Positions 1 through 20,231 of a stretch of 20,231 nucleotides of DNA are shown in pieces (within the stretch, counting starts at the first letter, position 1; each line of letters starts with the position of its first letter). Under the pieces are notes generated by a model. It was given only the letters and a program-made list of their open reading frames with translations. It searched no databases and had not been told where the DNA came from. Source of the stretch: a virus; the IMG/VR virus record IMGVR_UViG_3300025168_000897, positions 1 through 20,231 of that record. The stretch is one strand, 5' to 3'. The position numbers and the translations under genes are program-made.

Positions 1-287
1 ATATTAATTACGGATTAAAAGATGTGCTAAATATAAGAGCGGTAGAGTTTGACTGGAAAGAAAAAAGAGAAGGTAAACACGATATTGGATTTATAGCACA
101 AGAGATAGAAAAGATTATACCTGAAGTAGTAAATGAAGTAACTACTATTGGAGAGAATGCTAAAGAGGGCGACACTCATAAAGTAGTAGATTATGCTAAG
201 CTTACTTCGGTATTAATGAAAGCAATACAAGAACAACAAGTTCAAATAGATGAACTTAAAACACAAATAGGAGAGCAAAATGGCTAA
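1..287 (+). CDS. Tail spike/fibre C-terminus with peptidase S74 intramolecular chaperone domain (5' partial)
   Basis: The frame is already open at base 3, so only the last 94 residues of a longer protein are visible. They match the C-terminal half of the peptidase S74 (intramolecular chaperone auto-processing) domain: YGLKDVLNIRAVEFDWK, then GKHDIGFIAQEIEKIIPEVV at visible residues 24-43, then VVDYAKLTSVLMKAIQEQQ. The chain ends in a short coiled coil (QVQIDELKTQIGEQ). In this family the domain helps trimerise phage tail spikes or fibres and then cleaves itself off. The catalytic Ser-Lys pair lies further upstream and cannot be checked here. The gene end overlaps the next start (ATGGCTAA, 280-287), so the two are translationally linked. 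An internal GTG at 24 is in frame but would cut the domain, so it is not a start. Family call is firm; the fibre body is unseen. Confidence 0.85.
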   Translation, partial: INYGLKDVLNIRAVEFDWKEKREGKHDIGFIAQEIEKIIPEVVNEVTTIGENAKEGDTHKVVDYAKLTSVLMKAIQEQQVQIDELKTQIGEQNG

Positions 288-1120: not shown

Positions 1121-1420
1121 ATGACCGAGTTGAGTAAAGGAAGTAAGTTTACCATAAGTATAGAAACTGCTGCTAGTATAGCAGTTACAATAGCTTTAGT
1201 AGTTGGTATGTGGTATACGCTACAAGCAGATATACAACTAGCAAAAGAATTACCAGAACCAGAAGTATCACGTATGGAGTACGATCTTAAAGATCAAATG
1301 GTTCGTGATTCAATTATGAATACAGAAGAAAAAGTATCAAAACTTGAAGAGAAAGTAGATTCGGTTAAAGACGATACACAGATGATTAATAAAACTCTAC
1401 TTAATATGAACAACAAATAG
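1121..1420 (+). CDS. Single-TM protein with C-terminal coiled coil, candidate spanin- or holin-like lysis accessory
   Basis: A 99-aa protein with one clear membrane segment at about residues 14-35 (IETAASIAVTIALVVGMWYT), preceded by a short charged N-terminus. A long charged helix follows: LPEPEVSRMEYDLKDQM, then EEKVSKLEEKVDSVKDDTQM at about 70-88. This 'short inside tail, one TM, periplasmic coiled coil' layout is that of inner-membrane spanins (Rz type), and some one-TM holins look similar. The ribosome site GGGGGATA (1111-1118) sits directly before the ATG. It lies about 1 kb upstream of a 3TM holin, which supports a lysis role. No outer-membrane spanin lipoprotein was found beside it, so the spanin assignment is a guess. 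It could also be a membrane-anchored structural helper. Confidence 0.6.
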   Translation: MTELSKGSKFTISIETAASIAVTIALVVGMWYTLQADIQLAKELPEPEVSRMEYDLKDQMVRDSIMNTEEKVSKLEEKVDSVKDDTQMINKTLLNMNNK

Positions 1421-1425
1421 GATGT

Positions 1426-1830
1426 ATGATGAAAAAATATATTACATTACAATTGCTTTGGCTTGGATTAGTTTTATTTCCATCGTCATTGCAATCGCAA
1501 ACAGTTAATTTAGATAGTTTTCAAGGTATACAGCTAATGAAAAATGAGTTTTGTGCCGTCATAGAAGTTAATGCAAGTTGGAATTATCGAAATAAAGTAG
1601 CTTTAGAGAAACTAGAAGGATGTTATACTGGATATATAGATATATCTAATAAAGATATTGGTGCAGTAATACAGAATGAATTAAACATTAAAGTAGTGCC
1701 TACAATTATTATCTTTGAATATGGTAAAGAGGTTAAAAGATTTGAAGCAGACCTAAGTATGAAGTTTGGAGAAGATGAAATACTTACAAAAATTAAAGAT
1801 GAAATTCAGAATTTAAAAAATATTGATTAA
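1426..1830 (+). CDS. Exported thioredoxin-fold protein lacking the CXXC motif
   Basis: A 134-aa protein with a signal peptide: MMKKYITLQLLWLGLVLFPS, probably cut after SLQSQ near residue 25. The mature part follows the thioredoxin fold. Strand FCAVIEVNASWNYRNK (42-57) sits where thioredoxins have the WCxxC loop. It is followed by YIDISNKD, then the cis-proline strand IKVVPTIIIFEYGKEV (88-103) and a final helix from about 115. The two active-site cysteines are absent (W52-N-Y-R), although C43 and C66 could pair. Two ATGs are possible, 1426 and 1429; AGGA at 1419-1422 fits 1429 better. It is probably a redox-inactive periplasmic protein, or one using a non-canonical disulfide. Its placement among membrane and lysis genes suggests action in the host envelope, but the role is unknown. 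Confidence 0.65.
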   Translation: MMKKYITLQLLWLGLVLFPSSLQSQTVNLDSFQGIQLMKNEFCAVIEVNASWNYRNKVALEKLEGCYTGYIDISNKDIGAVIQNELNIKVVPTIIIFEYGKEVKRFEADLSMKFGEDEILTKIKDEIQNLKNID

Positions 1831-1884
1831 TAGATTAAAATATTAGTAAATTTAGTGAATATAATAACAAAATAAAGGAATACA

Positions 1885-2085
1885 ATGGCTAAAGAAAAAA
1901 AAATAGACCTTAAAGCAGTTGCAATGCAAGAAATGGAAACATTAGTAGAGCAACATAATGAATTAATAAAAACAATTCAGGAACAGCAAGGCAGACTAAC
2001 TGAAGTAAAAAACATGTTAGTAGAAAAACAAGGATACTTAAAAGGCCTTGAAGACTGCGACGCAAATTGCGATAAAGATGCCTAA
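1885..2085 (+). CDS. Small coiled-coil protein, function unknown
   Basis: A 66-aa, almost fully helical protein. MAKEKKIDLKAVAMQEME leads into a continuous heptad-type coil up to about residue 55 (LVEQHNELIKTIQEQQGRL), and the acidic tail EDCDANCDKDA carries two cysteines four residues apart. It follows the widest intergenic gap of the window (54 bases) and has a good ribosome site, AAAGGAA, at about 1873-1879. Its end overlaps the start of the 3TM holin by 8 bases, so the two are probably co-translated. It could be a holin partner or a small virion protein. No family is recognised; the gene call rests on spacing, Shine-Dalgarno and overlap. Confidence 0.7.
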   Translation: MAKEKKIDLKAVAMQEMETLVEQHNELIKTIQEQQGRLTEVKNMLVEKQGYLKGLEDCDANCDKDA

Positions 2086-2449
2086 CTTAAATTTAATAGG
2101 CACACTTATTGACAAGGTTGCACACAATGTTGATAGATTCACTTTAGACAAACAAGAAAAAGCTGAGCTTATAGCAGAAATAAACAAAGCTCAGTTAGAA
2201 GTTAATAAAGTAGAAGCAGGTCATAATTCAATATTTGTGAGTGGATGGAGGCCCTTTACGGGCTGGGTTTGCTCATTTGCATTGGCTTATCATTTTATAT
2301 TGCAACCCTTACTAACTTTCATACTTTACGCTAATGGTGTTGAAATGTTGTTGCCTGTATTTGATATGGGTACACTTACTACAATACTTCTTGGCATGCT
2401 CGGGTTAGGCGGGATGCGTAGCTTTGAGAAAGTAAAGAAAAAAAACTAG
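2078..2449 (+). CDS. Holin, 3TM gene-transfer-agent type
   Basis: A 123-aa protein from ATG 2078; a TTG at 2048 is in frame but would deepen the overlap with the upstream gene. The N-terminal half is soluble and helical (about residues 20-48). It is followed by HNSIFVSGWRPFTGWVCSFA (49-68), the 'WRPF-GW' entry into hydrophobic segments at about 62-84 and 98-114. The chain ends LLGMLGLGGMRSFEKVKKKN with a basic tail. This order (charged helix, WRPF.GW, DMGTL, LLGMLGLGG.R.-EK) matches the Pfam family of 3TM holins for gene-transfer-agent release and related phages, as I remember it. It would form lesions in the inner membrane that allow the lysozyme at 7258-7725 to reach peptidoglycan. The endolysin is about 5 kb away, so the lysis genes are split. 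Confidence 0.8.
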   Translation: MPNLNLIGTLIDKVAHNVDRFTLDKQEKAELIAEINKAQLEVNKVEAGHNSIFVSGWRPFTGWVCSFALAYHFILQPLLTFILYANGVEMLLPVFDMGTLTTILLGMLGLGGMRSFEKVKKKN

Positions 2450-2453
2450 GAGA
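2448..2453 (+). promoter_or_regulatory. Ribosome binding site selecting a TTG start
   Basis: AGGAGA overlaps the stop codon of the holin gene and lies 5 bases before the TTG at 2459. No in-frame ATG exists near the conserved N-terminus of the downstream phosphoesterase, so this strong site supports the TTG as the real start. Confidence 0.6.
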
Positions 2454-2458
2454 ACTTT

Positions 2459-3232
2459 TTGAAAATAACTAAACGTGGTATTATAGTACCAGATACGCAT
2501 TTTCCATTACAGGATGATGCGGCGATGGATTGTGTTGTACAAGCAATAAGAAAAATTAAACCAGATGTTTTTGTTAATCTAGGAGATGTAGGAGAATGGG
2601 AATCTGTATCGGCATGGAAGTATAAGGATAAGAAATTACCGCCGCTAGAGTATGTAATACCTGTTGTAGACGAAGAAATAAGATTAGTTAACGAACAAAT
2701 GGACATTTGGGATGAAGTTCTTAAAGAAGTGGAATGTAAAGAAAAGTATTTATTACAGGGTAACCACGATCTTTGGTTGGATAATTTTGTTAATAAGTAT
2801 CCTTATATGGATAAGTACGCATTTTTTAAGGCGTGCAAAATAAAGGAAAGAGGGTATAAGTATACTGAATATAATTTACCTATACAGATTGGTAAACTCA
2901 CTTTTTTTCACGGTGCTTTTGCAACTACATATCATGCGAAAAAGCATCTTGAAGCTTATGGAGAGAATGTAATATATGGACATACTCATGACGTACAAAG
3001 ACATACACAGACTAAACTAAATGGTACTGTTGCAGCTTGGTCTATGGGATGTTTGAAAGATATGTCACATGAAAGTAATAGATGGTTAAAGGGACGACTA
3101 CATAACTGGGTGCATGCGTTTGCAATTGTAGACTGGTATAGCAATGGAGAGTTTAAAGTGGAGGTCGTAGAAATAAAAGATGGAATAACAAGTGTATGGG
3201 GGGAATTAATAGATGGTACAAATAATAAGTAG
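2459..3232 (+). CDS. Calcineurin-like metallophosphoesterase
   Basis: A 257-aa protein with the complete metal-binding motif series of the calcineurin-like phosphoesterase superfamily: D-x-H in PDTHFP (D12, H14), GD in NLGDVGEW (G42-D43), GNHD (101-104), H151 in FFHG, and GHTH (174-177). These residues normally hold two divalent metals and hydrolyse phosphoesters of nucleotides, nucleic acids or phosphoproteins. The substrate cannot be told from sequence. It begins with TTG behind a strong AGGAGA site. Its end overlaps a 45-aa gene. Phages often carry such enzymes near replication or late genes, but here it sits between the holin and tail genes. The length fits a stand-alone single-domain enzyme, with no signal peptide, so it is presumably cytoplasmic. 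Confidence 0.88.
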   Translation: MKITKRGIIVPDTHFPLQDDAAMDCVVQAIRKIKPDVFVNLGDVGEWESVSAWKYKDKKLPPLEYVIPVVDEEIRLVNEQMDIWDEVLKEVECKEKYLLQGNHDLWLDNFVNKYPYMDKYAFFKACKIKERGYKYTEYNLPIQIGKLTFFHGAFATTYHAKKHLEAYGENVIYGHTHDVQRHTQTKLNGTVAAWSMGCLKDMSHESNRWLKGRLHNWVHAFAIVDWYSNGEFKVEVVEIKDGITSVWGELIDGTNNK

Positions 3233-6299: not shown

Positions 6300-7226
6300 A
6301 TGGCAAGAGGAATAGCACCAGTAACGATGGCTGATGATAGACAATCAATACAGACAAAAAACAAACAAGAAATTGATAAAATAGAAACTGATATTGGCTT
6401 AGACGCTTTAAAAGACCCAATTACAGGGATGGCTACTGTAATAGCAGATTCTGCGATACAAAGCAAGGCTTATAAAACAATAGGACAAAGTTTAGCTGAG
6501 TCTTCTTATTTATCAGAAAATGACGAAGGAGAATTTGAAAATAAGAAAAAATCTAAAGTTGGACAATGGTTACAAAAATCATTAAAAGGTTTAGTAGGTC
6601 CATCTCTTAGTGAAGAAATTGATACAATATCTAAAGAATCTTTAGGTGGGGTTAGTACAGAATTGGCGGCGATAGCAGCTGCAGCAATTAAACGTATCGA
6701 AGCTCTGTCGTTAAGTCCAGACGACAAAGACGGTAAATTAAAAGATATGGCAATATGGCTTACGGAACAAACCAAAATACCTATTAACAAAGATGGAACT
6801 AGAACTACTGACATACTACCTTTTTCAGAGTGGGAAGAAATTAATAATAAAGATTCAGAACCGACAGTAACAACAGATGAAATAATTTCAGATGTTAATG
6901 CAGCAGTTCGTAAAAATTATGACGGATTCGGCGTAGTATCTGACAATTTGTATCAATTCCCAAACAGTGATAAAGAAAAATACGGTGCTTATTATGCAAC
7001 TATATATGGAGGCAATAAAGCCATGTCTTTAAGTCATATTAACAGACAATTAAATAAAGGTTATATAAATATGCCTGGTTCTAAAAGTGTCTTTGATAAA
7101 ACTAAGTATTTAAATGAGGGATTTATGAGGGAATTAATTAGTGTAGGTTCTTTAGCACTTTACAATAGATTGTATAACGATGGAAAGCTACCTAATGTTA
7201 AAGGTCCTGAGTCTTATGATTTTTAG
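6300..7226 (+). CDS. Putative virion protein, function unknown
   Basis: A 308-aa protein starting MARGIAPVTMADDRQSIQTK. It is predicted mostly helical. There is an alanine-rich stretch at about residues 115-130 (GGVSTELAAIAAAAIKRIEA), too short and polar at its edges to be a sure membrane span. An acidic linker around 176-195 is followed by a C-terminal part containing YGAYYATIYGGNKAMSLSHI. The ribosome site AGAGGG lies at about 6287-6292. It is flanked by a tail gene and the lysozyme, inside a run of likely virion genes, so a structural or internal role is plausible. No family or active site is recognised. Confidence 0.6.
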   Translation: MARGIAPVTMADDRQSIQTKNKQEIDKIETDIGLDALKDPITGMATVIADSAIQSKAYKTIGQSLAESSYLSENDEGEFENKKKSKVGQWLQKSLKGLVGPSLSEEIDTISKESLGGVSTELAAIAAAAIKRIEALSLSPDDKDGKLKDMAIWLTEQTKIPINKDGTRTTDILPFSEWEEINNKDSEPTVTTDEIISDVNAAVRKNYDGFGVVSDNLYQFPNSDKEKYGAYYATIYGGNKAMSLSHINRQLNKGYINMPGSKSVFDKTKYLNEGFMRELISVGSLALYNRLYNDGKLPNVKGPESYDF

Positions 7227-7257
7227 TGCTATTTTTAAAAAAAAAGAAGACCGATTT

Positions 7258-7725
7258 ATGGATAAGCTTTTTGACCATATAAAAGAAAGAGAAGGATACA
7301 AGCAAAGCGTGTACTTAGATGTTTTAGGTAAAGCAACGTGTGGTATTGGACATCTTTTAAGTAAGGATGAAAAAGAAAAATATCCTGTAAAGTCTTTAGT
7401 TTCAAAAAAAGTTATAGATAGTTGGTTTAAAAAAGATATTAAAACTGCAATGGACGCATCTAATACACAAATGAAATTATTAGAATTAATAGATGAAGAT
7501 TTTAAAATAGCTTTAATATCTGTTAATTACCAATTAGGTACTAGTTGGCATAAGAAGTTTCCGATGACATGGAAGTTATTAAAAGCAAAGCATTATGATG
7601 ATGCTATAAAAGAATTATTATATAGAAACCCACCAGAAATGGACCCTTCTACATGGAAAGAACAAACTCCAGTAAGAGTTGAAGACTTTGTAGAGGCAAT
7701 AGAGAGAATTAAGGAGATAGCGTAA
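7258..7725 (+). CDS. Endolysin, T4-type lysozyme (GH24)
   Basis: A 155-aa enzyme of the T4 lysozyme/GH24 muramidase family, which cuts the N-acetylmuramic acid to N-acetylglucosamine bond of peptidoglycan. From ATG 7258 the catalytic triad is seen as E12 (KEREGY), D21 (VYLDVLG) and T27 (KATCGIGHLL). The spacing is identical to E11-D20-T26 of T4 lysozyme. The C-terminal lobe matches too: NYQLGTSWHKKFPMTWKLL and a QTPVRVEDF segment corresponding to the T4 'QTPNRA' region. The length is normal. The frame is open further upstream, with ATGs at 7216 and 7180. Start 7258 was chosen because homology begins there and GAAGA precedes it, but 7216 would add MIFSAIFKKKEDRF and is possible. No clear signal peptide, so it depends on the holin for export. 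Confidence 0.9.
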   Translation: MDKLFDHIKEREGYKQSVYLDVLGKATCGIGHLLSKDEKEKYPVKSLVSKKVIDSWFKKDIKTAMDASNTQMKLLELIDEDFKIALISVNYQLGTSWHKKFPMTWKLLKAKHYDDAIKELLYRNPPEMDPSTWKEQTPVRVEDFVEAIERIKEIA

Positions 7726-8782: not shown

Positions 8783-10174
8783 ATGAATATTTACGATGTA
8801 GTAACGCAAAGAAGAAAAGCTTTTAGGGATATGTTTGTAGCTTTAAAAGATTTTGCAGAGCCAACAGAACGAGAAAAAATGGCAACACAACATGCTATTA
8901 ATATGAGAGAAATGGCTCAAAGAGCAAAACTAGACTTAGAAACTGATATGATGAAATCTACTCAAGGCTTTGTTGAACAAATGAAGTTAGATGGTATAGA
9001 GTATGATAGAGACATTGAAAAACTAGGCCTTAGCATGCACGCACAATTAACACGAGACAATCAATTACATAACAATGCTCTAGAACTAGAAAAACTGCGT
9101 GTTTCAAATGATACGACGGCTGCTGGGACACTTAGAAAGCAGACTAAAACAGATTTAGTAGAAGCAGAAAATAAAGTTAAGAACGATGCATTTATAGCGT
9201 ATTCTGGAGCAAGTGGTACACGTACTGCTGCAGGGTGGGAGGCTTATTCACAACAATTGAGTACAGCTACTCGAGGTGATAACGATGAAAAAAGAGATTT
9301 TCAAATGCCCGACCCTAGCTTTAGAACATTTTTTGCTGAAGTGGGAACAGGAGCATGGAAAGGTGGAGTTGGCGTTTCAACACTTGGAATGATCGGTGGA
9401 CCACCGATTGCAGCAGTAGGTGGTGTATTAGGTGCTGTAGGAGGTGGTATTAAAGGTGCTTATGACTACACTGTGGGTAGAGGCGACATTACTAATCTTC
9501 AACCTGCTTTTGGGTGGGTTGCTAAAGGTTCAAGCGATATAGCTCATACTGGTCTTTTTGAAAAAGGTACTTATAGAGACGATGAAAAAAAACTAAGAGC
9601 TAAGAAAAAAGAAGACGGTCGTACCGCTATGTTTAGTGATGAAGATATTGAAGATATGATTAGTAGAATGGAATATCAAGATTACGACGCAACTATAGCT
9701 TTTGAAATGTGGTATCCCGAAGGAGTACAAACAGCCGACGGAATGCAATATGCACTTGGTGGCTTAGATCTTGCAATAAATGCTAACTACCAAGAGGATT
9801 ATTCACATATGTTTCCATGGATGGGATCAAAATCAGAGCAAGAAGCGAAAAAAGATACAGTTAAACTTAAAATGCCTAGAAATATGTTATCTGAAAAGAA
9901 CTCTGCTATGTATGGAAATTATCGTTTAATTGAACATACTTTAAACAATTCTTTAAGTGATAAAACTATAGCACTGGTAGGAATACAATTAGGTGCAGAA
10001 GCAGAAAATTTGCTAAAACAAAAGCAATATCAAATGAAGGCTAAGAAAAAACATTATGAAGACTATTCGACGCAAAACGACGCCGACATAAGAAACGGTG
10101 GAGTAGTAGACTTGTCTGACCATGAATATATTATAAGTAAAGCTAATACTACAGTAACAACTATTGGACAATAA
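8783..10174 (+). CDS. Putative internal/ejection protein with glycine-zipper hydrophobic segment
   Basis: A 463-aa protein. Residues 1-135 form long charged helices (QHAINMREMAQRAKLDLETD), probably coiled coil. Residues about 186-228 form a Gly/Ala-rich hydrophobic stretch (GTGAWKGGVGVSTLGMIGGP, then IAAVGGVLGAVGGGIKGAYD) with repeated GxxxG spacing, as seen in membrane-inserting or channel-forming segments. The C-terminal half is soluble and charged. A strong AAGGAG at 8772-8777 drives its start. Its stop overlaps the start of the giant gene (TAATG), so the two are made together. Ejection proteins that form a trans-envelope conduit often combine long helices with such segments, hence the call. 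No named family is recognised. Confidence 0.6.
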   Translation: MNIYDVVTQRRKAFRDMFVALKDFAEPTEREKMATQHAINMREMAQRAKLDLETDMMKSTQGFVEQMKLDGIEYDRDIEKLGLSMHAQLTRDNQLHNNALELEKLRVSNDTTAAGTLRKQTKTDLVEAENKVKNDAFIAYSGASGTRTAAGWEAYSQQLSTATRGDNDEKRDFQMPDPSFRTFFAEVGTGAWKGGVGVSTLGMIGGPPIAAVGGVLGAVGGGIKGAYDYTVGRGDITNLQPAFGWVAKGSSDIAHTGLFEKGTYRDDEKKLRAKKKEDGRTAMFSDEDIEDMISRMEYQDYDATIAFEMWYPEGVQTADGMQYALGGLDLAINANYQEDYSHMFPWMGSKSEQEAKKDTVKLKMPRNMLSEKNSAMYGNYRLIEHTLNNSLSDKTIALVGIQLGAEAENLLKQKQYQMKAKKKHYEDYSTQNDADIRNGGVVDLSDHEYIISKANTTVTTIGQ

Positions 10175-13100
10175 TGAGTAAAGAATACTACATGAAATTA
10201 GCTTCTAGCGGAGCTATAACTGAAGCTCAATTAATGCAATCTATGCAGGCAATGTATAGAAGCAATCCTCGTAACTTTACTATGGAAGAAGTTGATTATC
10301 TAGAAAAATATAACGAACAAGTTAATCAAGCTTTCAATAGAAATATGGAAGCTGAAGATGGTAAAATACTTGAAGGCGTTAATCAATTTATATCAGGTGT
10401 CGTAGAAGGGTTTACTACACTTGGTTGGGCAGACGAAACAGATAAGCAAGGACATGCATTGGCTAATAAAATAGGTCACTTTATCGGTTTTGCTCCAGAT
10501 ATTATTGCTGGAGTAGTAACAGGTGGTCTTTCAGCGTCATTAACAGCAGCAAAACTTGGTGGAAAATTAGGTACAAAGCATATGTCTAAATCTGCTAAAA
10601 AGAAATTAGGCAGCAGTATTGCTAAGCAACAAGCTAGAAATGATAATCTTCAAGATAAAATAGGTCAAATACAGCAAACAGCTGGTGCATGGGGTAAAGA
10701 AAAAATACCATTTTTAGTTACTGAAGGTGAAGGTGGTTCTTTAGCACTAAGGTCTGTTCCAATGAGAGCTGCTGATTATCTTTTAGGTCAATCAAAAGCT
10801 AAAGCAGGTGCAATGGGTATAAATGCAGCTAAATATTTTGGTAAACACGGTGAAATTGCTTCAGATATATTAATTGATAAAGGTGTTCATCTAGGTCTTG
10901 CTTTAGGAGTTTCTTCTATATGGGAAGGACCTAAAGCAGCTTCTGAAGCTGCAGTACATGGAACTATTGCTGGTATTGTATTTGGTGGTGTTGGTAATTA
11001 TATGAATTTTGGTAAAATGTTAAGTAGTAGTAATTCTCTTGTCAGGAAAAATGGAGAAACTTTATTACGTGATAAAGCTGCTAAAATAAGTAGAGAAGGT
11101 GGACAAGCACTAGATTTCCTTGTAAAAGGTACTGCTGGTGCTTCATATACAGGTTTTATGGCCAAGGATGCTCCTTTACCAGACCAAGTTTATGAATTGA
11201 TGCTAGGGTTCTTCTTCGGTGCTTCATCACGACCATGGGCCGAAATTCAACGAACAAAATTGGTTAATCAACATAGCAAAGAAATCTTTGAAGAAATGAC
11301 ACCTTATATAGCAATTGATAAAGCTACGGGAAAACCTGTATGGAATGAAAGTACTGGTAAACGAGAATTAACACCTATAGAAATTGAAGAGCTAAAAACT
11401 TTATCAAAACCAGGTGTAGAATTAGATAAATTTCAAGAAAAAAAATTAGATGATTTGCGAAATAAACAGTTTGAGTTTGATAAAAAGAATAAAGAAAACG
11501 AAGATATCATTGGAGTTATTCCAGTCGATATAACTACTTTTGATTTTTATAAAGAAGCGCATCCTCAAGTTCAAGCTGAATTAAAAAAATTCGAAGGTAG
11601 AGTTTTACAACAAGTGTATGAAAGAAATATGGAACCATGGGATATACTTTTAAAGAAATTATATGAAAAATCAGAAGAAAGTGTTGAGATAAAAGAAAAG
11701 TTAACAGAAATAGATTTTAGTGCTCAATTAATTAAAATTAGAAATGATATAATGGCAGAAAGAAAAAGAACAAATCTAGAAGAGCAAATTGAAGGAACAG
11801 TTCTTACGAGTGGAGAATTATCACAAACAGTTGATAAAGATGGTAATGTAGAGTTTTCTTATATCCCAGGTGGTCCAAAATGGAAAAGACCTGCTATTGA
11901 AGAAGCAAAAGATACTTTGTTTGTTTATGCAGACAATGTTAAGGGAGATACAGTATCTGAAGCTTCTACAGAAGCTCGTGGATTAGATAATAGTACTTTT
12001 ATTAGAGCTAATAACTCTAAAACTGAACAATGGACAGATAAAACTTTTAAAGAAAATAAAAAATCTATTGATGAAGATATTACTTTAATTGAACAAAAGA
12101 TGAAAAAAGGTAATTTTGATATGATCGCCATTATGGATGTACCTATTAATATTGCTACTAATGCACCAAAGACAGCAAAATATTTAGCTAAAAAACTAGG
12201 AACACTTAGAAAAACACATGGATTTAAAGGAATAAAAGTTTACTCTGGTGGAGCTACAGGGGCCGATAGTATATTTAATAATATTCTTGCTAAATATAAT
12301 ATTAAAGTAACGCATTATTATGGAGAAGGTGGTAAAAAACCTATAAAAGGTAATACTGAAATTAGCAAAGATGAATTAAGAGCCGCCGATGAACACATAT
12401 CTAAAGCTAATGATACATTAGACAGAGATATAAGCAAACTTTCTGATTATTCTTTAAACTTATTAAGAAGAAATTGGTTTCAAATAAAAGATGTAGACCA
12501 AGTTATTGCTATTGGTCAAATTGAAAAAAATGTAGTAGATGGAGGCACTGCTTGGGCTGTGCAAATGGCTATTGATGCAGGTGGTAAAGAAGTTCTTGTT
12601 TATGATGTTATAGCAAAAAGATGGAATAGATGGGATGCTGACAGAGGAATATTTAAACCAACGGATTCTATTCCAACACTAGCTAAAAGTTATGCTGCAA
12701 TAGGTTCTAGAAAAGTAGGACAAGAATATGTAGGTAAGACTAAACTTACAGAGTCGTGGAAAGCTGCTGAAGGAGCAATTGAAGAATTAATAACATATAA
12801 TTATGGTGATTCAAGAAATCCTTATCCAGAACTTACTGACACCATTGTAACTTCAAGAAAAATAAAAAATAATCCAAATCGTATTAACGACGATGATTCA
12901 GTGAGAACTGGTAGAGCTGAGTTTGACGAAGAACCTGGAGAAGAGTTTAGTACTAGAGATGGTAATACCGATATTGAAGAACACTTACAATACAATGCAC
13001 CAGAAATTAAAACTCAAATAATAAAAAAACTTAAAAAAGAAGCTTGGAACGCTGAAAGTAAACAAGAATTTTTAGATAAAGTAACTCCAATATTAAAAGA

Positions 13101-16100
13101 TATGGGTGTTGTTGCTGATTTAGAATCAGCATTAAGTAAATATTATAATTTCCATGGAAATAGTATGACAGAACCTACCATGGCAATAGCTATTACTGTA
13201 GTGGAACAAAAACCCAATAAAAAAGGTAAGGTTTATCCTAAATGGGATGCAGTAGATATTATTGCAACTCCTACTACAGATAGACAGGGTAAATCATTAC
13301 TTGAAAATAGACCAGAAAGTATTACTAATTTAGCTTATGGTAGAAAAGTTGCTTTTTATATTGATTATATAGACCAACAAGGTCAAAAAAGTTATTATAC
13401 AAAAGATTTTGATGATTTAAACTTTGGTAATCGAGGTTCAGATTATCATTTAGGATTTACTCCGTGGAATATACAGAAAATAAATGATGTATTACGAAAT
13501 AAAGAATGGATAAGTAAAGCTTTTCCCGAAGAAGTATATACACTTAAATCAGGAGAAGAAGTAAATACTGTACCAGGAGCTTATATATTTACACTACCTA
13601 AAGATAAAAAAACTATGGAAATTAGAAGGATTCCATGGCAAACAGTAACTTCGAAATTACCTAATCACATACCAAAGTCTTTAATAAATTCAATAAGACA
13701 ATCTCTTATGGATACTTATAGAGCAAATGGCGGTAGAGTATTAACAGCTTCACCGTTTTTTAATAATGTTATAACTGACATGGGTGGTAAAACTCAAGGA
13801 ATACAAAAAGATAGAAGGTTTCCAAAACAAAATCGTCAAAGTTTTTTTGCTGAAAATAAACGTGCTTTAGAATGGGGAAATGCAGAAAATAAAAAAAGAC
13901 TTGAAGAACAAATTATGTCTAACATGATATATGAATTACAGGAGCATGGATTTTTAAATAAAGATTTATCAAAAGTTAACAGAGATATGTACGCAGAAGC
14001 ATTAGATGCTTATTACGAATTACCACCTATTACAAATATTCAACAATGGAATAAATATAGAGCATTATATAGAGGTAATGGTAGACAGCTTAGTAATGAA
14101 GAAGTATTTAAAGCTTTAGGAAAAGATACGTTGAGAGCTATAGCAGTAGAAGATATCGAAATATCAGATATAGAGTTTCTTGCTGAAAGATTAAAAGTGT
14201 CTGAAGGAGAAGTAGAGTCTTATATAAGTAATATAGCTAACACTGATGGTGCTATTGGTGCTTCTCATAAGCTAATGAAATATATAGGTAAAGACACTGA
14301 AACACCAGGAAGAAGTTCTGTTAAGCCTGTAATTGTAAAATATGGTGAAGTAGATGGTATTGGTTTAATTTTAGGTAAAGCTGGTATGTTTTCAGTATCA
14401 AAAGAATTAAATACATGGATGGAGTCTAAAGGATATGATTTAATTATTAGAAAGTCTGCTTTAAAGGGAGATGCTCGAGTTGACATTGGACGATTAAAAA
14501 CAGAACAAGATAAAGATAATCCAAGTGAATATATTTATGGCGAAGAAATAGAAGCGCAGCCTTTTGATTTAAATCCATCAGATATTCGTATTATTGATAG
14601 TGAAATTGAAATGTCTCAAGAAAGAGGAACAAAAAATATTAGGTCGCACAAAGGTGTTTGGAATAAAATAAATAATAAATTCGGTGAACCTTTTCAAGAA
14701 GCTTGGAATAGATTAATAGATAAACAATTAAATCCAGACCCCGATTTTGATTCAGCTGTTGACCCAAAGTCGTATGTTTCTAGGCCAGAACAATCTTTAA
14801 TAGATGGTACAATAAAAAGCAATCCTAATAAAATTACTAGCGATACTATTGATAGATTGAGTACACATAAAATACAAGAGGTTGTTAATAAACACGCTGA
14901 TACTGAACTGATGATAGATATTGTTAAGGCTATCATGGGTTATAGTGGTAGAAAAACTAATTTATCTGATATTTTTGAAAAAGCTCAAGATCAAACCCAC
15001 AATCTTCAAGAAAGAAAGATAATGCAAGATGTATTGAAGCAACTAGATTATAATCCAATATATATGTCAAGAGCTGATGTAGCACCTTATATAGAAACTA
15101 CTATTAAAAATTATTTATTTGCAAGATTTCAAAGACCTATAGTTGAACGTGGATTTGATTATACTAGAAGTCATTCTGCTGAAGAAATTTTCATAAACAA
15201 GAATCCTGAACTATTTAAAGATGGAAGTAATGATAAGTTCTTTTTAAATGAAGGACACAGAACTGATGAAATTATAGTTAGACAAACGGATGGTAGTACT
15301 AAATATATGGAATTGGGTAGAGCTTTTGACCTATACAATGGAACAGCCCTTGATAAGAATGGAAACGTAGTAAAAATAGGTAAAAAAGCAAAAGAATTGC
15401 TTTACCAAGACTTACATTATGTTATTACAAGAGCTCCTCAAGCTGGTAATAGTGGAATGCAATCTCTTCTATTTTCAGGATTTACTGGAGTAGAGGGAAG
15501 AGGTTACATATCTAATGCAAAAACTTATAGAGATTTAAACGGAATGGACGTAGATATAGATGCTGTATCTGGATATCAGTCATTGGAATGGGCTATAAAA
15601 GAAGGATTTAAAAATCCAGAAGTAGCAAATGAATTGGTAGGTAAAAAAATGATGGATTTAGATGTTTACAATACTGGTAAAGAAGCTAATTCTCTTAAAT
15701 TAAAAGAAATATTAGCACAAAATTTAGGTCTTATTGATGGAGAAGTTAATGGGAGTTTATTAAATTTTTATTTTAAATCTAATCCTAAATATGTTGATAT
15801 AGATAAAGCAGCTGTTTCAACAATATTTCATCCTTGGTGGAGAATGGAACAAGGAAAAGAATCTCAAATAGGTAAAGATAATATTGGTATAGTTACAGAT
15901 AACTTAACTTACTTTAGTCAATTAGCTACTTCCATAGAACAGTATGGACCAAAAAAATATGATTTACTTTCTGGTTCAAAAGAAACAGAAGGGTATGAAA
16001 TAGATTTAAGAAAAACATTTGATAGCCCTACTCTTTCATCGGACCGATATGCACCTTATGTATCAAGTTATGTAGGAAAACATAAACTCAATATTACAGA

Positions 16101-19100
16101 TTTTTTAACTGAAGCAATGCATTCAGGGATAGCAAGTTCCGTAGATGGTTCTAAAAATTGGATAAATAGACCAGCAGGTGGCTTTATAGATGAAGTATTT
16201 AATACTGCGTTTGTAATTAGAGATATAAAAACTGGTAAAGAACAAGAATTTGAACCAGGGTGGACAATTCCTGAATCATTTAGTTCTTTAATGGGAGGAA
16301 AAGACGGAAAAGTACAAAAAGATTATATTTTTACATCTGAAAAAGATTCAGGAGGAACACCAGTTCGTGCTTCTTCAAGAAAGGTAGACGAAAACGGAAG
16401 ACCAGAAAAACAAAGAGCTGAATATGGCAAATATGTAGAACCGTATAATATGAACAATGCAAGCGATAAAGCAGAAGCAACAAAAATTATACAAGAAATT
16501 GTACGAGAACCTGCAATGAATAGAGCAAATATATTGAATAAAGTTGGGTTTAAAGAAGAAATATTAGAAACTCAAGTAGAGGGAATGCTTAGTGATTTAG
16601 AGGCATATTACAATCCAATAGAAGCCGTAACACCGCTTGAGGTTACAGATGTAGTTAAGACAAAAACAGTAAAAGGAACACAAGCAGTAGAAACAAAAGG
16701 GTTCCCTATCGAAGGTAAAACAATTCCTAACAATAGAGAGTTATTTATTCTAGGTTTTGATTTAAACCAAGTAGAGTTTGGCTATCTTGCTACAAATTTA
16801 CCTGAAAAACCTATGCTAGTATTTAAAACTAATCTTGAAAATATAACTAGTATATCTACTGGTGTAGACCCAATGAATACTTTAAGGTCAATGAGAGCAA
16901 TGAATGGCTCTATGTCACAAAAAAGAAATAAAAAAGACCATACTGCAGCTTCTATGAACTGGAATGCAAAAGATTATCTTGACTCATTTAAAGATCATTC
17001 TGGTGGATTATCTAAAACATGGAGTACTAAGCAAGCTGAAATAGTAGATGGTCATGGAAGAGATGGTCTTGACGTAAATATAGATTTATTAAAAAGTGTT
17101 GAAAAAACTTCTGACCAACAATTAACTGATGTTTTAGATGTGTATGAAGCTATAGTTAAAAATAATCCATGGTACGTAGAATTAATTGAACGAGGATGGT
17201 TTAAAGAAGACCCTTTATTAGCTGGAATTGTTCAAGATAAAGTATTGACTGAGCAAGGATATGATGCTACTAAGTTTAGAGACAGAAAAGATATGCTTAA
17301 AAAGATTTATTCGAGTGATGTACTTTCAGATAAACAATTATTTAAAAGTATCACAAATTTAACTCATCATGTAAACAGTATAAGACAACAACTAATTGTA
17401 ATAGATATGGTAAATAAAGTATTAAGTGATGCTGGTTTATCAAGCGAGTTAATTAAAGATAAAATAGGTGAAGTAATAGAGATAGCTTGGGAATTAAAAA
17501 CTAAAGACCAACTAAAACGTAATATAGGAATAAAATCGGGTGATACTGATGTTAAAGATTCAAGACTTAATAAACTGGTATTTAATTATAAAGAAGGCGT
17601 ATTAGATAACTATTACTTTAATGCAGCTGGTGAAAAAGTTGTAGATAAAAGTTTAGGTATGATGACCTTAAGTATTTACGACAAAGGACTTGAAACAGTT
17701 GAGTCTTATGATAATACATTAGGTTCTAACGAACCAGTTAAGGAAAAAACTGTAGCTAGACATAAAGTTATAGAGCAAGAGTTTTTAGATAATCCTGATA
17801 TATATAATGCGCTAGAACAATTGTTTGATTTTTCTATGCTTTCTTCTCATATAGGTGGTGATATTCATAGAAATAAACTTAATCATAGTTTAACATATGA
17901 ATACCTACATAAGGATTTAGTAAAAGATAAAAATGGAAATCTTACTCCCCAAAGCGAGTATAAACGAAAACAAAGAGAGCTTTCTTTACGAAAACAAGTA
18001 AAATTAACGGACTCTAAAGAATTTATAGTATCTCAAAAAGAACTTAACTTTATTGATATTCCTTATCATGAAATGATACAAAAACGTATAGAGGAATTGT
18101 CTGGTGTAGATAAAAAATATGGTACAGAATCATTAGCAGCTTATAAAAGTATGATATCTGGGAAAAATCAGAATCTTATAAAAGCTGTTCAAAAATGGGA
18201 AGATATAACTACCATTCGTGGTGGAAAATTAATTGAAAGACTTTCATCTATAAATCCATCTAATCTTAAATTGTTTTATGATAATTCTTATAAATTTTGG
18301 AAAGAATTAAATTCTAAAAATTTAATGGATGAAATGTTAGTAAATCTAGGTGATGTAGGTCAAAACCCTAACAACCCAGTATCTTCATATGTCTTAAATC
18401 AGCAATTAAAAAATAAATTTAAAGAAGAAAATAGTAGAAAAAATCCTCTAGAAAAAGAAGACCCAATTTTATTAAGCAAGGCAGTTAAAATTAAAGATGT
18501 AAAAGAAGACAATATAAACCTAAGAAGTAAAGATGGAGAATTTCAAGTTGCAGCTAAACTTTATCAAAATAAAGAAACTGGAAAAAATGAAATTTACTTT
18601 TCAAGCGCAGCTATAAGTGAATCTTTTAAGAAAAAATCTTGGAAAAACCCTAAAGTATCTGGTGTTAAGCCTATTCCTATTGACTTTACTAGCGAAAGTC
18701 AATTTAAAGAATTTGTTGTATATCACGAGTTGTCTCATTTTTTACATCCACAAAAATTAACTGAAAAAACTTCTGTATATGAAAATAGAATGAATCGTAT
18801 TGCATTGAAAAGTTTATTTCAAAATAAATTAAATAAAAAACAATTAGAAGTTTTAGAGTCAGAAAACTTTTTAGATTGGAGAACAAACAATGTTAAAGAT
18901 TTTAATATTCTTTCAGTTAATGAAAAAGGATTAATTTCTTTAGAGTATGATAAAGCACAAAATACATCTAACGCAGAAACTTTAATTCGTATTAGAGAAA
19001 TAGAGTTAAAAGAAACAGTGTTGGATAACATTATTTTAAAAAGTATAGAAAAGAAAATTAAGAAAAAGACATATATTAAAAATGACATGACTAATGAAGC

Positions 19101-20231
19101 ATTAGATGCTCTTTCGGAAAGATATTCTCAAAGATCGTTAGACGATGAAGTTTTTGAACCTCCAAAAAATACTGAAGATTGGGCAAAAACATTAGATGAG
19201 CCTGGACCAAGTATTAAAGAAGTACAAAAAATGGTAGAAAATTATGAAGGACCTTTAGAAAAAGGACCAACCGAAGAAGTACAAATTAAGGAAAAAATTG
19301 AAAAAAATGTAGTAGAGATAGAAAAGGTTTTAAAAGTACCTACTAAGAAATTAGAATCAAAAACTTTAAATGAAGCAATAGAAAAATTAATAGAAACTAA
19401 ACATGAACATTCAAGATTGGAACCTAAAGAAGTTACTTCTAGCAAGAAAGAAGGTTTTGAAGTTAGTACAGCTGGAGATAAGCTTGGAAAACAATTTAGT
19501 GCTCTTAATGCAACTTTAAAAGATGGAAGAACTGTTGAGTTAGCATATCAACAAGCTAAGGGATATAAAACAATCGGAGAAGGTAAGGGTAAGGAAGCTC
19601 TTAATCCTGAATTTGATTACTATGGTACTTATAAAGAACTTTGGAATAGATGGGCTAAAGAGAATCCTAAAAAGATTAAAGAGTTAAGTGATTATTTACT
19701 AGATAATAATATTACAAGTTTAAAAGATAGTAAGAATTTTAAGAACACTCCAAACAATCAGGCAAAAGCTTTATCTGAGATAATTACTACGTTCAGAAGA
19801 AAGCAAAGAATTGATTCAGATAGAAAAATGATGAATACTATGAATAACCTTAAAAGAGAAATACAGAAAAAATCAGATGAAAAAATTATAGACGAACCAG
19901 CTCTTAAAGAACCTAAAGTTGTTGAAAAAGAAGTTATTATCCCCAAAGAATCAATAAAGGTTGAGTTGGAAGAAGAAGTTATAAAACCAGCTGATGTACC
20001 TCTTATTGGTGACCCAATTACAGAACGAGGTAATGTTAAAAAACTAATTGCTAAATTGACTAAAATGCAAAAAACAAAAGAACAAGAAGATTTATTAAAT
20101 GAAATAATGGATATTTTTAGAAAAAAGAGTAAGGATAATACAATTGATATTGACCAAGAAGATATTCTTGCACTGAGTGATTTTTTTAGTAATCAAAAAT
20201 CGAAAGAATTAAATGAAGGCCATTCTATGAA
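10174..20231 (+). CDS. Giant multidomain polyvalent phage protein: SLOG, two-barrel RNA polymerase-like core, zincin (3' partial)
   Basis: One frame stays open from ATG 10174 to the window edge: 3352 codons with no stop. Its start is coupled to the preceding stop (TAATG) with only a weak GGA upstream. Order of parts: helical N-terminus; hydrophobic segments (about 101-130 and 236-277) like those of ejected virion proteins; a SLOG nucleotide-binding domain (about 680-828) followed by a PTLAKSYAAIGSRKV element; an acidic linker (about 905-930); RNA polymerase-like barrels at about 1350-1450 and 1740-1810; a zincin metallopeptidase at about 2806-2882; a charged Pro/Glu/Lys linker (about 3010-3090); an STAGDK-type domain (3097-3205); and a second Glu/Lys/Pro linker. 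Such giant fusions are known as polyvalent proteins of phages and conjugative elements, thought to be delivered into the host with the DNA. Packaging and polymerase activity here are inferred. Confidence 0.9.
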   Translation, partial: MSKEYYMKLASSGAITEAQLMQSMQAMYRSNPRNFTMEEVDYLEKYNEQVNQAFNRNMEAEDGKILEGVNQFISGVVEGFTTLGWADETDKQGHALANKIGHFIGFAPDIIAGVVTGGLSASLTAAKLGGKLGTKHMSKSAKKKLGSSIAKQQARNDNLQDKIGQIQQTAGAWGKEKIPFLVTEGEGGSLALRSVPMRAADYLLGQSKAKAGAMGINAAKYFGKHGEIASDILIDKGVHLGLALGVSSIWEGPKAASEAAVHGTIAGIVFGGVGNYMNFGKMLSSSNSLVRKNGETLLRDKAAKISREGGQALDFLVKGTAGASYTGFMAKDAPLPDQVYELMLGFFFGASSRPWAEIQRTKLVNQHSKEIFEEMTPYIAIDKATGKPVWNESTGKRELTPIEIEELKTLSKPGVELDKFQEKKLDDLRNKQFEFDKKNKENEDIIGVIPVDITTFDFYKEAHPQVQAELKKFEGRVLQQVYERNMEPWDILLKKLYEKSEESVEIKEKLTEIDFSAQLIKIRNDIMAERKRTNLEEQIEGTVLTSGELSQTVDKDGNVEFSYIPGGPKWKRPAIEEAKDTLFVYADNVKGDTVSEASTEARGLDNSTFIRANNSKTEQWTDKTFKENKKSIDEDITLIEQKMKKGNFDMIAIMDVPINIATNAPKTAKYLAKKLGTLRKTHGFKGIKVYSGGATGADSIFNNILAKYNIKVTHYYGEGGKKPIKGNTEISKDELRAADEHISKANDTLDRDISKLSDYSLNLLRRNWFQIKDVDQVIAIGQIEKNVVDGGTAWAVQMAIDAGGKEVLVYDVIAKRWNRWDADRGIFKPTDSIPTLAKSYAAIGSRKVGQEYVGKTKLTESWKAAEGAIEELITYNYGDSRNPYPELTDTIVTSRKIKNNPNRINDDDSVRTGRAEFDEEPGEEFSTRDGNTDIEEHLQYNAPEIKTQIIKKLKKEAWNAESKQEFLDKVTPILKDMGVVADLESALSKYYNFHGNSMTEPTMAIAITVVEQKPNKKGKVYPKWDAVDIIATPTTDRQGKSLLENRPESITNLAYGRKVAFYIDYIDQQGQKSYYTKDFDDLNFGNRGSDYHLGFTPWNIQKINDVLRNKEWISKAFPEEVYTLKSGEEVNTVPGAYIFTLPKDKKTMEIRRIPWQTVTSKLPNHIPKSLINSIRQSLMDTYRANGGRVLTASPFFNNVITDMGGKTQGIQKDRRFPKQNRQSFFAENKRALEWGNAENKKRLEEQIMSNMIYELQEHGFLNKDLSKVNRDMYAEALDAYYELPPITNIQQWNKYRALYRGNGRQLSNEEVFKALGKDTLRAIAVEDIEISDIEFLAERLKVSEGEVESYISNIANTDGAIGASHKLMKYIGKDTETPGRSSVKPVIVKYGEVDGIGLILGKAGMFSVSKELNTWMESKGYDLIIRKSALKGDARVDIGRLKTEQDKDNPSEYIYGEEIEAQPFDLNPSDIRIIDSEIEMSQERGTKNIRSHKGVWNKINNKFGEPFQEAWNRLIDKQLNPDPDFDSAVDPKSYVSRPEQSLIDGTIKSNPNKITSDTIDRLSTHKIQEVVNKHADTELMIDIVKAIMGYSGRKTNLSDIFEKAQDQTHNLQERKIMQDVLKQLDYNPIYMSRADVAPYIETTIKNYLFARFQRPIVERGFDYTRSHSAEEIFINKNPELFKDGSNDKFFLNEGHRTDEIIVRQTDGSTKYMELGRAFDLYNGTALDKNGNVVKIGKKAKELLYQDLHYVITRAPQAGNSGMQSLLFSGFTGVEGRGYISNAKTYRDLNGMDVDIDAVSGYQSLEWAIKEGFKNPEVANELVGKKMMDLDVYNTGKEANSLKLKEILAQNLGLIDGEVNGSLLNFYFKSNPKYVDIDKAAVSTIFHPWWRMEQGKESQIGKDNIGIVTDNLTYFSQLATSIEQYGPKKYDLLSGSKETEGYEIDLRKTFDSPTLSSDRYAPYVSSYVGKHKLNITDFLTEAMHSGIASSVDGSKNWINRPAGGFIDEVFNTAFVIRDIKTGKEQEFEPGWTIPESFSSLMGGKDGKVQKDYIFTSEKDSGGTPVRASSRKVDENGRPEKQRAEYGKYVEPYNMNNASDKAEATKIIQEIVREPAMNRANILNKVGFKEEILETQVEGMLSDLEAYYNPIEAVTPLEVTDVVKTKTVKGTQAVETKGFPIEGKTIPNNRELFILGFDLNQVEFGYLATNLPEKPMLVFKTNLENITSISTGVDPMNTLRSMRAMNGSMSQKRNKKDHTAASMNWNAKDYLDSFKDHSGGLSKTWSTKQAEIVDGHGRDGLDVNIDLLKSVEKTSDQQLTDVLDVYEAIVKNNPWYVELIERGWFKEDPLLAGIVQDKVLTEQGYDATKFRDRKDMLKKIYSSDVLSDKQLFKSITNLTHHVNSIRQQLIVIDMVNKVLSDAGLSSELIKDKIGEVIEIAWELKTKDQLKRNIGIKSGDTDVKDSRLNKLVFNYKEGVLDNYYFNAAGEKVVDKSLGMMTLSIYDKGLETVESYDNTLGSNEPVKEKTVARHKVIEQEFLDNPDIYNALEQLFDFSMLSSHIGGDIHRNKLNHSLTYEYLHKDLVKDKNGNLTPQSEYKRKQRELSLRKQVKLTDSKEFIVSQKELNFIDIPYHEMIQKRIEELSGVDKKYGTESLAAYKSMISGKNQNLIKAVQKWEDITTIRGGKLIERLSSINPSNLKLFYDNSYKFWKELNSKNLMDEMLVNLGDVGQNPNNPVSSYVLNQQLKNKFKEENSRKNPLEKEDPILLSKAVKIKDVKEDNINLRSKDGEFQVAAKLYQNKETGKNEIYFSSAAISESFKKKSWKNPKVSGVKPIPIDFTSESQFKEFVVYHELSHFLHPQKLTEKTSVYENRMNRIALKSLFQNKLNKKQLEVLESENFLDWRTNNVKDFNILSVNEKGLISLEYDKAQNTSNAETLIRIREIELKETVLDNIILKSIEKKIKKKTYIKNDMTNEALDALSERYSQRSLDDEVFEPPKNTEDWAKTLDEPGPSIKEVQKMVENYEGPLEKGPTEEVQIKEKIEKNVVEIEKVLKVPTKKLESKTLNEAIEKLIETKHEHSRLEPKEVTSSKKEGFEVSTAGDKLGKQFSALNATLKDGRTVELAYQQAKGYKTIGEGKGKEALNPEFDYYGTYKELWNRWAKENPKKIKELSDYLLDNNITSLKDSKNFKNTPNNQAKALSEIITTFRRKQRIDSDRKMMNTMNNLKREIQKKSDEKIIDEPALKEPKVVEKEVIIPKESIKVELEEEVIKPADVPLIGDPITERGNVKKLIAKLTKMQKTKEQEDLLNEIMDIFRKKSKDNTIDIDQEDILALSDFFSNQKSKELNEGHSM
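10474..11004 (+). other. Hydrophobic, glycine-rich segments of the giant protein (membrane-interaction candidates)
   Basis: Residues about 101-130 (GHFIGFAPDIIAGVVTGGLS) and about 236-277 (GVHLGLALGVSSIW, then HGTIAGIVFGGVGNYMNFG) are the only strongly apolar stretches seen in the giant chain. A basic KKK-rich helix lies between them. They are consistent with insertion into the host envelope during DNA ejection. This is inference from hydrophobicity only. Confidence 0.45.
12211..12657 (+). other. SLOG (DprA/LOG-like Rossmann) domain in giant protein
   Basis: Residues about 680-828. KVYSGGATGADSIFNNILAK (689-708) holds the glycine-rich loop (G692-G-A-T-G-A-D698) typical of SLOG domains. It is followed by HYYGEGGKKPIKGN, LNLLRRNWFQIKDVDQVIAI (762-781) and GGTAWAVQMAIDAGGKEVLV (790-809). 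The second GGT-A loop plus the conserved Arg-Asn-W are characteristic of the phage branch. SLOG domains bind nucleotides or nucleotide-derived ligands or cut N-glycosidic bonds. In phage polyvalent proteins they are proposed to counter host defences or sense nucleotide signals. The downstream YAAIGSR (840-846) resembles the first strand of another SLOG copy. Confidence 0.8.
14221..14523 (+). other. Candidate RNA polymerase double-psi barrel 1 (beta-subunit-like) in giant protein
   Basis: Residues about 1350-1450. NTDGAIGASHKLM (1356-1368) is followed by SSVKPVIVKY (1381-1390) and GLILGKAGMF (1397-1406), then WMESKGYDLIIRKSALKGD. The bacterial beta subunit barrel has 'DG...S', 'VKPGD' and 'LVGK' with two catalytic lysines. 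Here K1384 (VKP) and K1402 (LILGK) fall in matching motifs with a short insertion between them. It is suggestive because the second, DxDxD-bearing barrel follows in the same chain, as expected for single-chain polymerases. Confidence 0.5.
15391..15603 (+). other. Candidate RNA polymerase double-psi barrel 2 with DVDID catalytic loop in giant protein
   Basis: Residues about 1740-1810. YVITRAPQAGNSGMQSLLFS (1749-1768) leads to GFTGVEGRGYISNAKTYRDL and then NGMDVDIDAVSGYQ (1789-1802). The order R-x-P, a hydrophobic strand, G-x-x-I-x-x-A, then D-x-D-x-D matches the beta'-type barrel, where three aspartates (here D1792, D1794, D1796) hold catalytic magnesium. In cellular enzymes the loop reads DFDGD. 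In crAss-like phage and RNAi-type polymerases it is DxDxD with a variable fourth position. A non-polymerase barrel cannot be excluded by eye. Confidence 0.6.
18589..18819 (+). other. Zincin metallopeptidase domain in giant protein
   Basis: Residues about 2806-2882. GVKPIPIDFTSESQFKEFVV (2830-2849) runs into YHELSHFLHP with the HExxH zinc motif at 2851-2855. This is followed 15 residues later by YENRMNRIAL (2869-2878), whose E2870 is the likely third ligand. The ordering 'VKP.P....F..F..FV..HE..H.......YENR.N..AL' is that of zincins embedded in phage polyvalent proteins, as I remember the family. It could mature the giant polyprotein or cut a host protein. Confidence 0.75.
19462..19788 (+). 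other. STAGDK...QAxALSEI domain of unknown activity in giant protein
   Basis: Residues about 3097-3205: VSTAGDKLGKQFSALNATLK (3097-3116), then DGRTVELAYQQAKGYK, GKGKEALN, YKELWNRWAKENPKKIKELS (3153-3172) and TPNNQAKALSEII (3192-3204). The same chain of motifs recurs in many phage and plasmid proteins in my recollection, alone or on the same polypeptide as SLOG domains. I cannot give a reliable name or reaction. It is bounded on both sides by charged Pro/Glu/Lys linkers, so it is probably an independent module. Confidence 0.6.

Follow-up and report, generated by a model that had tools for sequence, protein, structure and literature searches.

A giant phage protein with a predicted single-chain, two-barrel RNA polymerase core

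Single-chain, two-barrel RNA polymerases (RNAPs) carried inside giant virion proteins are a kind of phage enzyme already known from phi14:2 and P23-45. In the crAss-like phage phi14:2, gp66 is reported to be a functional virion RNAP (PMC7886860). In P23-45, gp96 is a virion protein of 5,002 residues that contains both an RNAP and a metallopeptidase, and gp64 is a non-virion RNAP (PMC10770324). In addition, podoviruses eject the giant N4 virion RNAP (~3,500 aa; PMC12633501). Among RNA-interference polymerases, QDE-1 has its barrels at residues 690-792 and 916-1018, with invariant active-cleft lysines K743/K767 and aspartates D1007/1009/1011 (PMC1750930), and archaeal PolD shares the two-barrel core (PMC4996933). 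Here we describe a giant phage protein whose core is strongly supported as an RNAP by structure prediction, invariant residues and a family of relatives.

Layout of the giant gene and its surroundings

The window, the whole stretch of DNA analysed here, covers the entire 20,231-base virus record IMGVR_UViG_3300025168_000897. Its last open reading frame starts at 10174 and stays open for 3,352 codons to the contig end. The features of this region are as follows.

7180..7725, + strand: lysozyme/endolysin (phrog_7, E 8e-15; internal virion lysozyme motif phrog_2083, E 3e-7)
8783..10174, + strand: 463-aa protein coupled to the giant gene, with a glycine-rich hydrophobic stretch
10174..20229, + strand: giant multidomain open reading frame, at least 3,352 aa, cut by the contig end
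10186..11373, + strand: N-terminal domain, aa ~5-400 (blastp to relatives L184, E 2e-57, L189, L103 and L061)
11881..12189, + strand: DUF7831 domain, aa 570-672 (Pfam PF25176, E 7.6e-7, above the curated cut-off)
12223..12753, + strand: SLOG/DprA-like domain, aa ~684-860 (phrog_768, E 8.9e-14; tblastn)
13570..16179, + strand: single-chain two-barrel RNA polymerase core, aa ~1133-2002, strongly supported by AlphaFold2 models, structure matches and alignment
14251..14643, + strand: barrel B (DPBB-B), aa ~1360-1490 (model strands, invariant columns, range of the QDE-1 alignment)
15139..15576, + strand: barrel A (DPBB-A), aa ~1656-1801 (model strands, invariant columns, profile match to crAss RNAPs)
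15832..15945, + strand: candidate bridge helix, aa ~1887-1924 (AlphaFold2 models; alignments to largest subunits of cellular RNAPs)
18691..18783, + strand: HELSHFLH zincin-like metallopeptidase motif, aa ~2840-2870 (motif only)
19438..19788, + strand: phrog_9995 domain, aa 3089-3205 (E 1.3e-19)

The window encodes, in order, a holin, a metallophosphoesterase, a 908-aa protein, small genes, the lysozyme, three genes and the giant gene. The stop/start coupling to the upstream gene proposed in the initial annotation is present as TAATG at 10172-10176, in which the upstream TAA stop overlaps the ATG start of the giant frame. The coupled 463-aa protein has no family match and is a candidate ejection protein. 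The N-terminal domain is common to most of the giant relatives by blastp and contains a hydrophobic stretch by hydropathy (aa 103-128), making it a candidate ejection or membrane part. The SLOG module named in the same annotation was recovered; by tblastn it matches DprA-like proteins as well as a record of Klebsiella phage Pylas that is annotated as virion RNAP. The zincin module was recovered in the form of a motif, with HELSH at residue 2851. The phrog_9995 domain also adjoins the RNAP motif in relative L175.

The best-covered relative is G024, the 43-kb record of L184, which shares much of the window's gene order and in which, as in the window, the giant gene closes the structural/lysis cluster. 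The holins of the two are 87% identical and the phosphoesterases 84%, and G024 also encodes a terminase, a portal, a major head protein and a DnaB-like helicase. Identity between the two giant proteins is 35% for the N-terminal domain but 22% for the RNAP; the closest cores to that of G024 belong to another clade, of the DKDSD type. Side by side, window positions 1121-3232 and the corresponding G024 genes (L234, L235) are 84-87% identical, against 22% for the RNAP. The combination of conserved neighbours and a divergent RNAP indicates that the core appears to have been exchanged or to be evolving extremely fast; from the sequences, exchange of the polymerase module is likely.

The head genes of G024 place it outside the crAss-like phages. 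Its terminase, portal and head protein belong to phrog_38, phrog_156 and phrog_1328, whereas those of phi14:2 belong to phrog_6681, phrog_6547 and phrog_11589, and a blastp comparison of structural proteins with phi14:2 revealed no homology. The terminase has distant similarity to terminases of the N4 type and others, and distant matches of the portal include records annotated as P22-like portals. Because the head genes of this relative are not of the crAss type, the giant protein represents a new branch of single-chain phage RNAPs.

Several other loci were noted in passing. A small window protein (1426-1830) has a signal-like N-terminus, looks thioredoxin-like by eye and is 59% identical in G024, with no PHROG match. 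The cut first frame of the window (3-287) resembles by eye a tail-spike C-terminal chaperone of the peptidase S74 type, and matches the end of a 1,850-aa frame in record G008 (E 5e-6). A promoter search of G024 and the window by repeats, word counts and a sigma-70 scan gave no set of candidates that exceeded chance expectation. One near-perfect sigma-70-like site, TTGACA-17-TATACT, lies where the G024 early region begins (L233, 10600-10628); it adjoins a repeated TTAGTATACTTATAGTAG element and, from its sequence, may be a host-type promoter.

Fold of the core and its invariant residues

The initial annotation had placed a possible single-chain RNAP at 14221-15603 and proposed structure prediction as a check. 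Our AlphaFold2 models bear out the RNAP and indicate a wider catalytic unit, at about 13570-16180. Two models were built, a core model of aa 1323-2002 (pTM 0.78) and a longer model of 1,040 aa from alignment A3 (pTM 0.76). In the longer model most barrel regions exceed pLDDT 80 and confidence is poor after aa ~2030, and some parts of the core fall below pLDDT 50 in the models. The first PDB match of the longer model is the phi14:2 gp66 virion RNAP (Foldseek E 5.2e-9), followed by QDE-1, and a structural aligner superposes it on gp66 641-1649 with Z 12.3 over 600 residues. The alignment of the core model with QDE-1 691-1142 takes in both barrels (Z 17.4, 393 residues); RDR2 aligns at Z 12.5-15.7, and P74-26 gp62 and P23-45 gp64 at Z ~11 (10.9 for gp64). 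The models also match the largest subunits of cellular RNAPs, all 50 of the 50 matches listed for the core model are RNAPs or complexes containing one, and no contrary fold emerged. P23-45 gp96 is absent among these 50 listed matches, an absence that excludes nothing. After barrel A lies the candidate bridge helix of 38 residues, which is of moderate confidence (pLDDT 77-87 in the longer model and 63-67 in that of the core), and the trigger loop region has low model confidence. Structural matches in BFVD reach E 2e-24 and are without names, indicating that related proteins have been deposited but apparently remain unannotated.

Both motifs reported earlier were confirmed on the sequence in position and order: VKP..LILGK, with K1384 at nt 14323 and K1402 at nt 14377, and RAP..GMDVDID, with R1753 at nt 15430 and D1792/D1794/D1796 at nt 15547-15561. 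Alignment A3, of 70 sequences over aa 1133-2172, contains 14 invariant columns: D1358, G1359, K1384, K1402, K1431, R1753, P1755, S1760, G1761, G1769, G1790, D1792, D1794 and D1796. The lysines and aspartates thus do not vary freely among homologues, the point that the initial annotation had asked of an alignment, and a third invariant lysine, K1431, joins the two that it had listed. Barrel B carries the three lysines, and barrel A carries R1753 and the predicted Mg-binding aspartate triad. A shorter alignment, A4, contains a few lysine exceptions, all in rows that are cut or insertion-shifted at that stretch. By Pfam, L118 has a DUF4326 domain after its DxDxD loop, and about four A4 members carry domains of the GNAT family; in L143, L200 and L214 the core appears by eye to be shifted by such an insert.

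Comparison with QDE-1 revises the proposed catalytic pair K1384/K1402. K1402 and K1431 are 29 residues apart, compared with 24 for K743-K767 of QDE-1, and by order and spacing these two fit the QDE-1 pair better than K1384 and K1402 do. By this analogy K1402 and K1431 are likely the active-site lysines, so that K1402 is kept and K1384 gives way to K1431. The gp66 lysines K1012, K1027 and K1065 occur in the same order as the three here. Structural superposition suggests that the lysines and aspartates may meet in one active site.

A family of giant phage proteins and its place among known systems

Searched directly, the RNAP part of the window protein is unmatched in phage records, PDB, Pfam, PHROGs and NCBIfam. 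Tblastn of the core and the N-terminus against 50,697 phage records gave no match, nor did a single-protein search of viral contigs, and PDB sequence searches with the protein and with profiles gave nothing relevant. Relatives were reached by motif. A first scan of viral contigs with GMDxDID led to proteins with the fuller signature R-x-P..SG....F.GFTG..G.G....G[MA]D-x-D-x-D, of which L061 matches the window by blastp over aa 1355-1813 (E 1.8e-16) and L153 over aa 1238-1821 (E 2e-30). A second DNA pattern, R-x-P-x5-G-x5-F-x-G-F-T-G, left out the aspartates, and neither pattern includes the lysines. It matched at least 120 viral contigs and had no match in shuffles of the window. Among the matches listed, DxDxD follows downstream in 119 of 121 readable contexts, the two others being one and the same unrelated frame, and 89 of these 119 relatives carry the DLDGD variant. 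Since the aspartates lie outside the second pattern, DxDxD in the relatives is not a search artefact, and its co-occurrence with the pattern is far beyond chance.

Encoded by tailed phages, the relatives are likewise giant, reaching ~3,400 aa. The Pfam family that they match most often is PF05183 (RdRP; 5 of 73, best E 3.2e-4); the window sequence itself does not match it, and attempts to trace the relatives' matches to a given stretch were without success. No T7-type RNAP was found in 30 family records, mostly fragments, in a search whose T7 positive control worked. A tree of 70 RNAP cores groups the window with L153 at support 100/97, a pairing that is uncertain because both branches are very long (2.37 for the window). 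One side of the tree consists mainly of DLDGD members; DKDSD, DKDAD and most DLDID members fall on the window's side. The family is absent from Mel-JY34, CRP-810, Kuura and ctwe8250, which are cultured or named phages whose head or portal genes are distantly related.

A search of one genome per GTDB species returned only two relatives. One, L247, is a 2,925-aa protein with GGADLDID on a 142-kb contig of a Bacteroidetes metagenome-assembled genome (JAHISV010000010.1). The other, L246, lies on a 46-kb contig filed under the Prochlorococcus single-cell genome AG-436-M02 (QCPL01000010.1; the whole contig is L259-L261) and encodes a 2,632-aa giant protein with RVPADSISG...GGADKDSD. The terminase on this contig is 64% identical to that of G024, and its head protein and portal are 62% and 57% identical to those of G027. 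The contig looks wholly phage. Prochlorococcus is a possible host of this lineage, with carry-over of a free particle during sorting as the alternative, and the window phage is probably marine.

Among known systems, gp66 (PDB 6vr4) resembles the giant protein in holding both barrels in one giant chain, in the barrel A signature G-[SM/A]-D-x-D-x-D with an upstream R-x-P, and in a gene that adjoins structural genes, whereas its fused domains differ from those of the family. According to the models, the RNAP fold of the giant protein is among those closest to the crAss enzyme. With the family profile, phi14:2 gave no match at E <= 1; sequence alignment is confined to barrel A, in a profile match to crAss RNAPs (E 2.2e-4), and a barrel-B profile gave no match to gp66 above decoys. 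QDE-1 and RDR2 (PF05183) have the closest fold to the core, at the Z-scores given above, and QDE-1 appears, by order and spacing, to share the arrangement of two lysines and DxDxD (PMC1750930). Unlike the giant protein, these are cellular eukaryotic enzymes that copy mostly RNA, and in them the motifs lie about 125 residues closer together.

P23-45 gp96 shares with the giant protein a single-chain two-barrel RNAP, a metallopeptidase and membrane segments, with its RNAP N-terminal and fused to the tape measure of a very long tail (PMC10770324). In the giant protein, by contrast, the RNAP is central (aa ~1133-2002) and follows the N-terminal, DUF7831 and SLOG parts, and the phages are podovirus-like. 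The N4 virion RNAP is T7-like, whereas the giant protein lacks PF00940 in Pfam and has a two-barrel fold; the likeness to N4-type phages (Schitoviridae) lies in the giant size of the protein, in the SLOG-like domain of the Pylas record annotated as a virion RNAP and in the distantly related terminases. No description of the giant-protein family was found in the open-licence papers searched, a comparison that does not extend to the 23 RNAP families of the PMC10770324 supplement.

Function in infection

Computation establishes the fold class, conserved residues, family and gene context of the giant protein. We consider it probable that this protein is a working single-chain two-barrel DNA-dependent RNAP that is packed in the virion, ejected and transcribes the first phage genes. 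In such an enzyme, the catalytic magnesium would be held by D1792/D1794/D1796 of barrel A, and the basic residues contributed by barrel B would likely be K1402 and K1431. A podovirus-like phage of about 40-55 kb would carry the protein in its capsid and eject it together with the DNA, a step in which the N-terminal domain and the coupled upstream protein would assist. Once in the cell, the protein would transcribe the first phage genes, either ahead of the host polymerase or in its place. We infer packaging, ejection and activity from the gene position, the fused N-terminal domain with its hydrophobic stretch and the precedents of gp66 and gp96; DNA as the template and the early timing are likewise presumed. 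By analogy, virion delivery is plausible, and the SLOG and zincin parts may, as the initial annotation proposed, be effectors injected along with the RNAP. Against this explanation, barrel B has no significant sequence match to gp66, and the sigma-70-like site of G024 would fit host-driven early transcription, though taken as a set such sites are no commoner than in shuffles.

An unlikely alternative is that the protein is a two-barrel RNAP made in the infected cell and left unpackaged, like P23-45 gp64, and that it serves middle or late genes; gp64 and P74-26 gp62 are of the same fold class (Z ~11). An enzyme needed during infection more usually sits with early genes, whereas the giant gene comes last in the late structural/lysis cluster, coupled to a gene that looks ejection-like. 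A further point against this alternative is the fusion of the RNAP to a large N-terminal domain that is kept across the family.

It is very improbable that the core is another two-barrel enzyme, such as a PolD-type DNA polymerase, a primase or an RNA-dependent RNA polymerase. PolD is also two-barrel (PMC4996933) and the best structural matches of the core are RNA-interference polymerases that copy RNA, but the best match in the whole PDB is a DNA-dependent phage RNAP and the phage has dsDNA packaging genes, as seen in G024. PolD is absent among the matches listed, a weak point, as an unlisted family is not thereby excluded. That the core is an inactive, purely structural RNAP relic in an ejection protein, as its strong divergence might hint (window branch 2.37, DVDID instead of the common DLDGD), is scarcely credible when every invariant catalytic position is kept and gp66, reported as a functional RNAP (PMC7886860), itself reads DFDID.

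Our analysis of the giant protein as a virion RNAP leads to a broader picture for which the chances appear about even: a large, unannotated, podovirus-like lineage, some of it perhaps on Prochlorococcus, in which a QDE-1-like virion RNAP is the only phage RNAP and its core is exchanged among close relatives. Many IMG/VR phage contigs encode a polymerase that standard annotation has missed, and these phages provide a further setting for single-chain virion RNAPs besides the crAss-like phages and P23-45. The more than 100 sequences allow the link between phage RNAPs and RNA-interference polymerases to be traced. If active, the enzyme would explain how transcription starts in these phages without a T7-type enzyme, and virion-carried transcription becomes testable in a possible Prochlorococcus phage.
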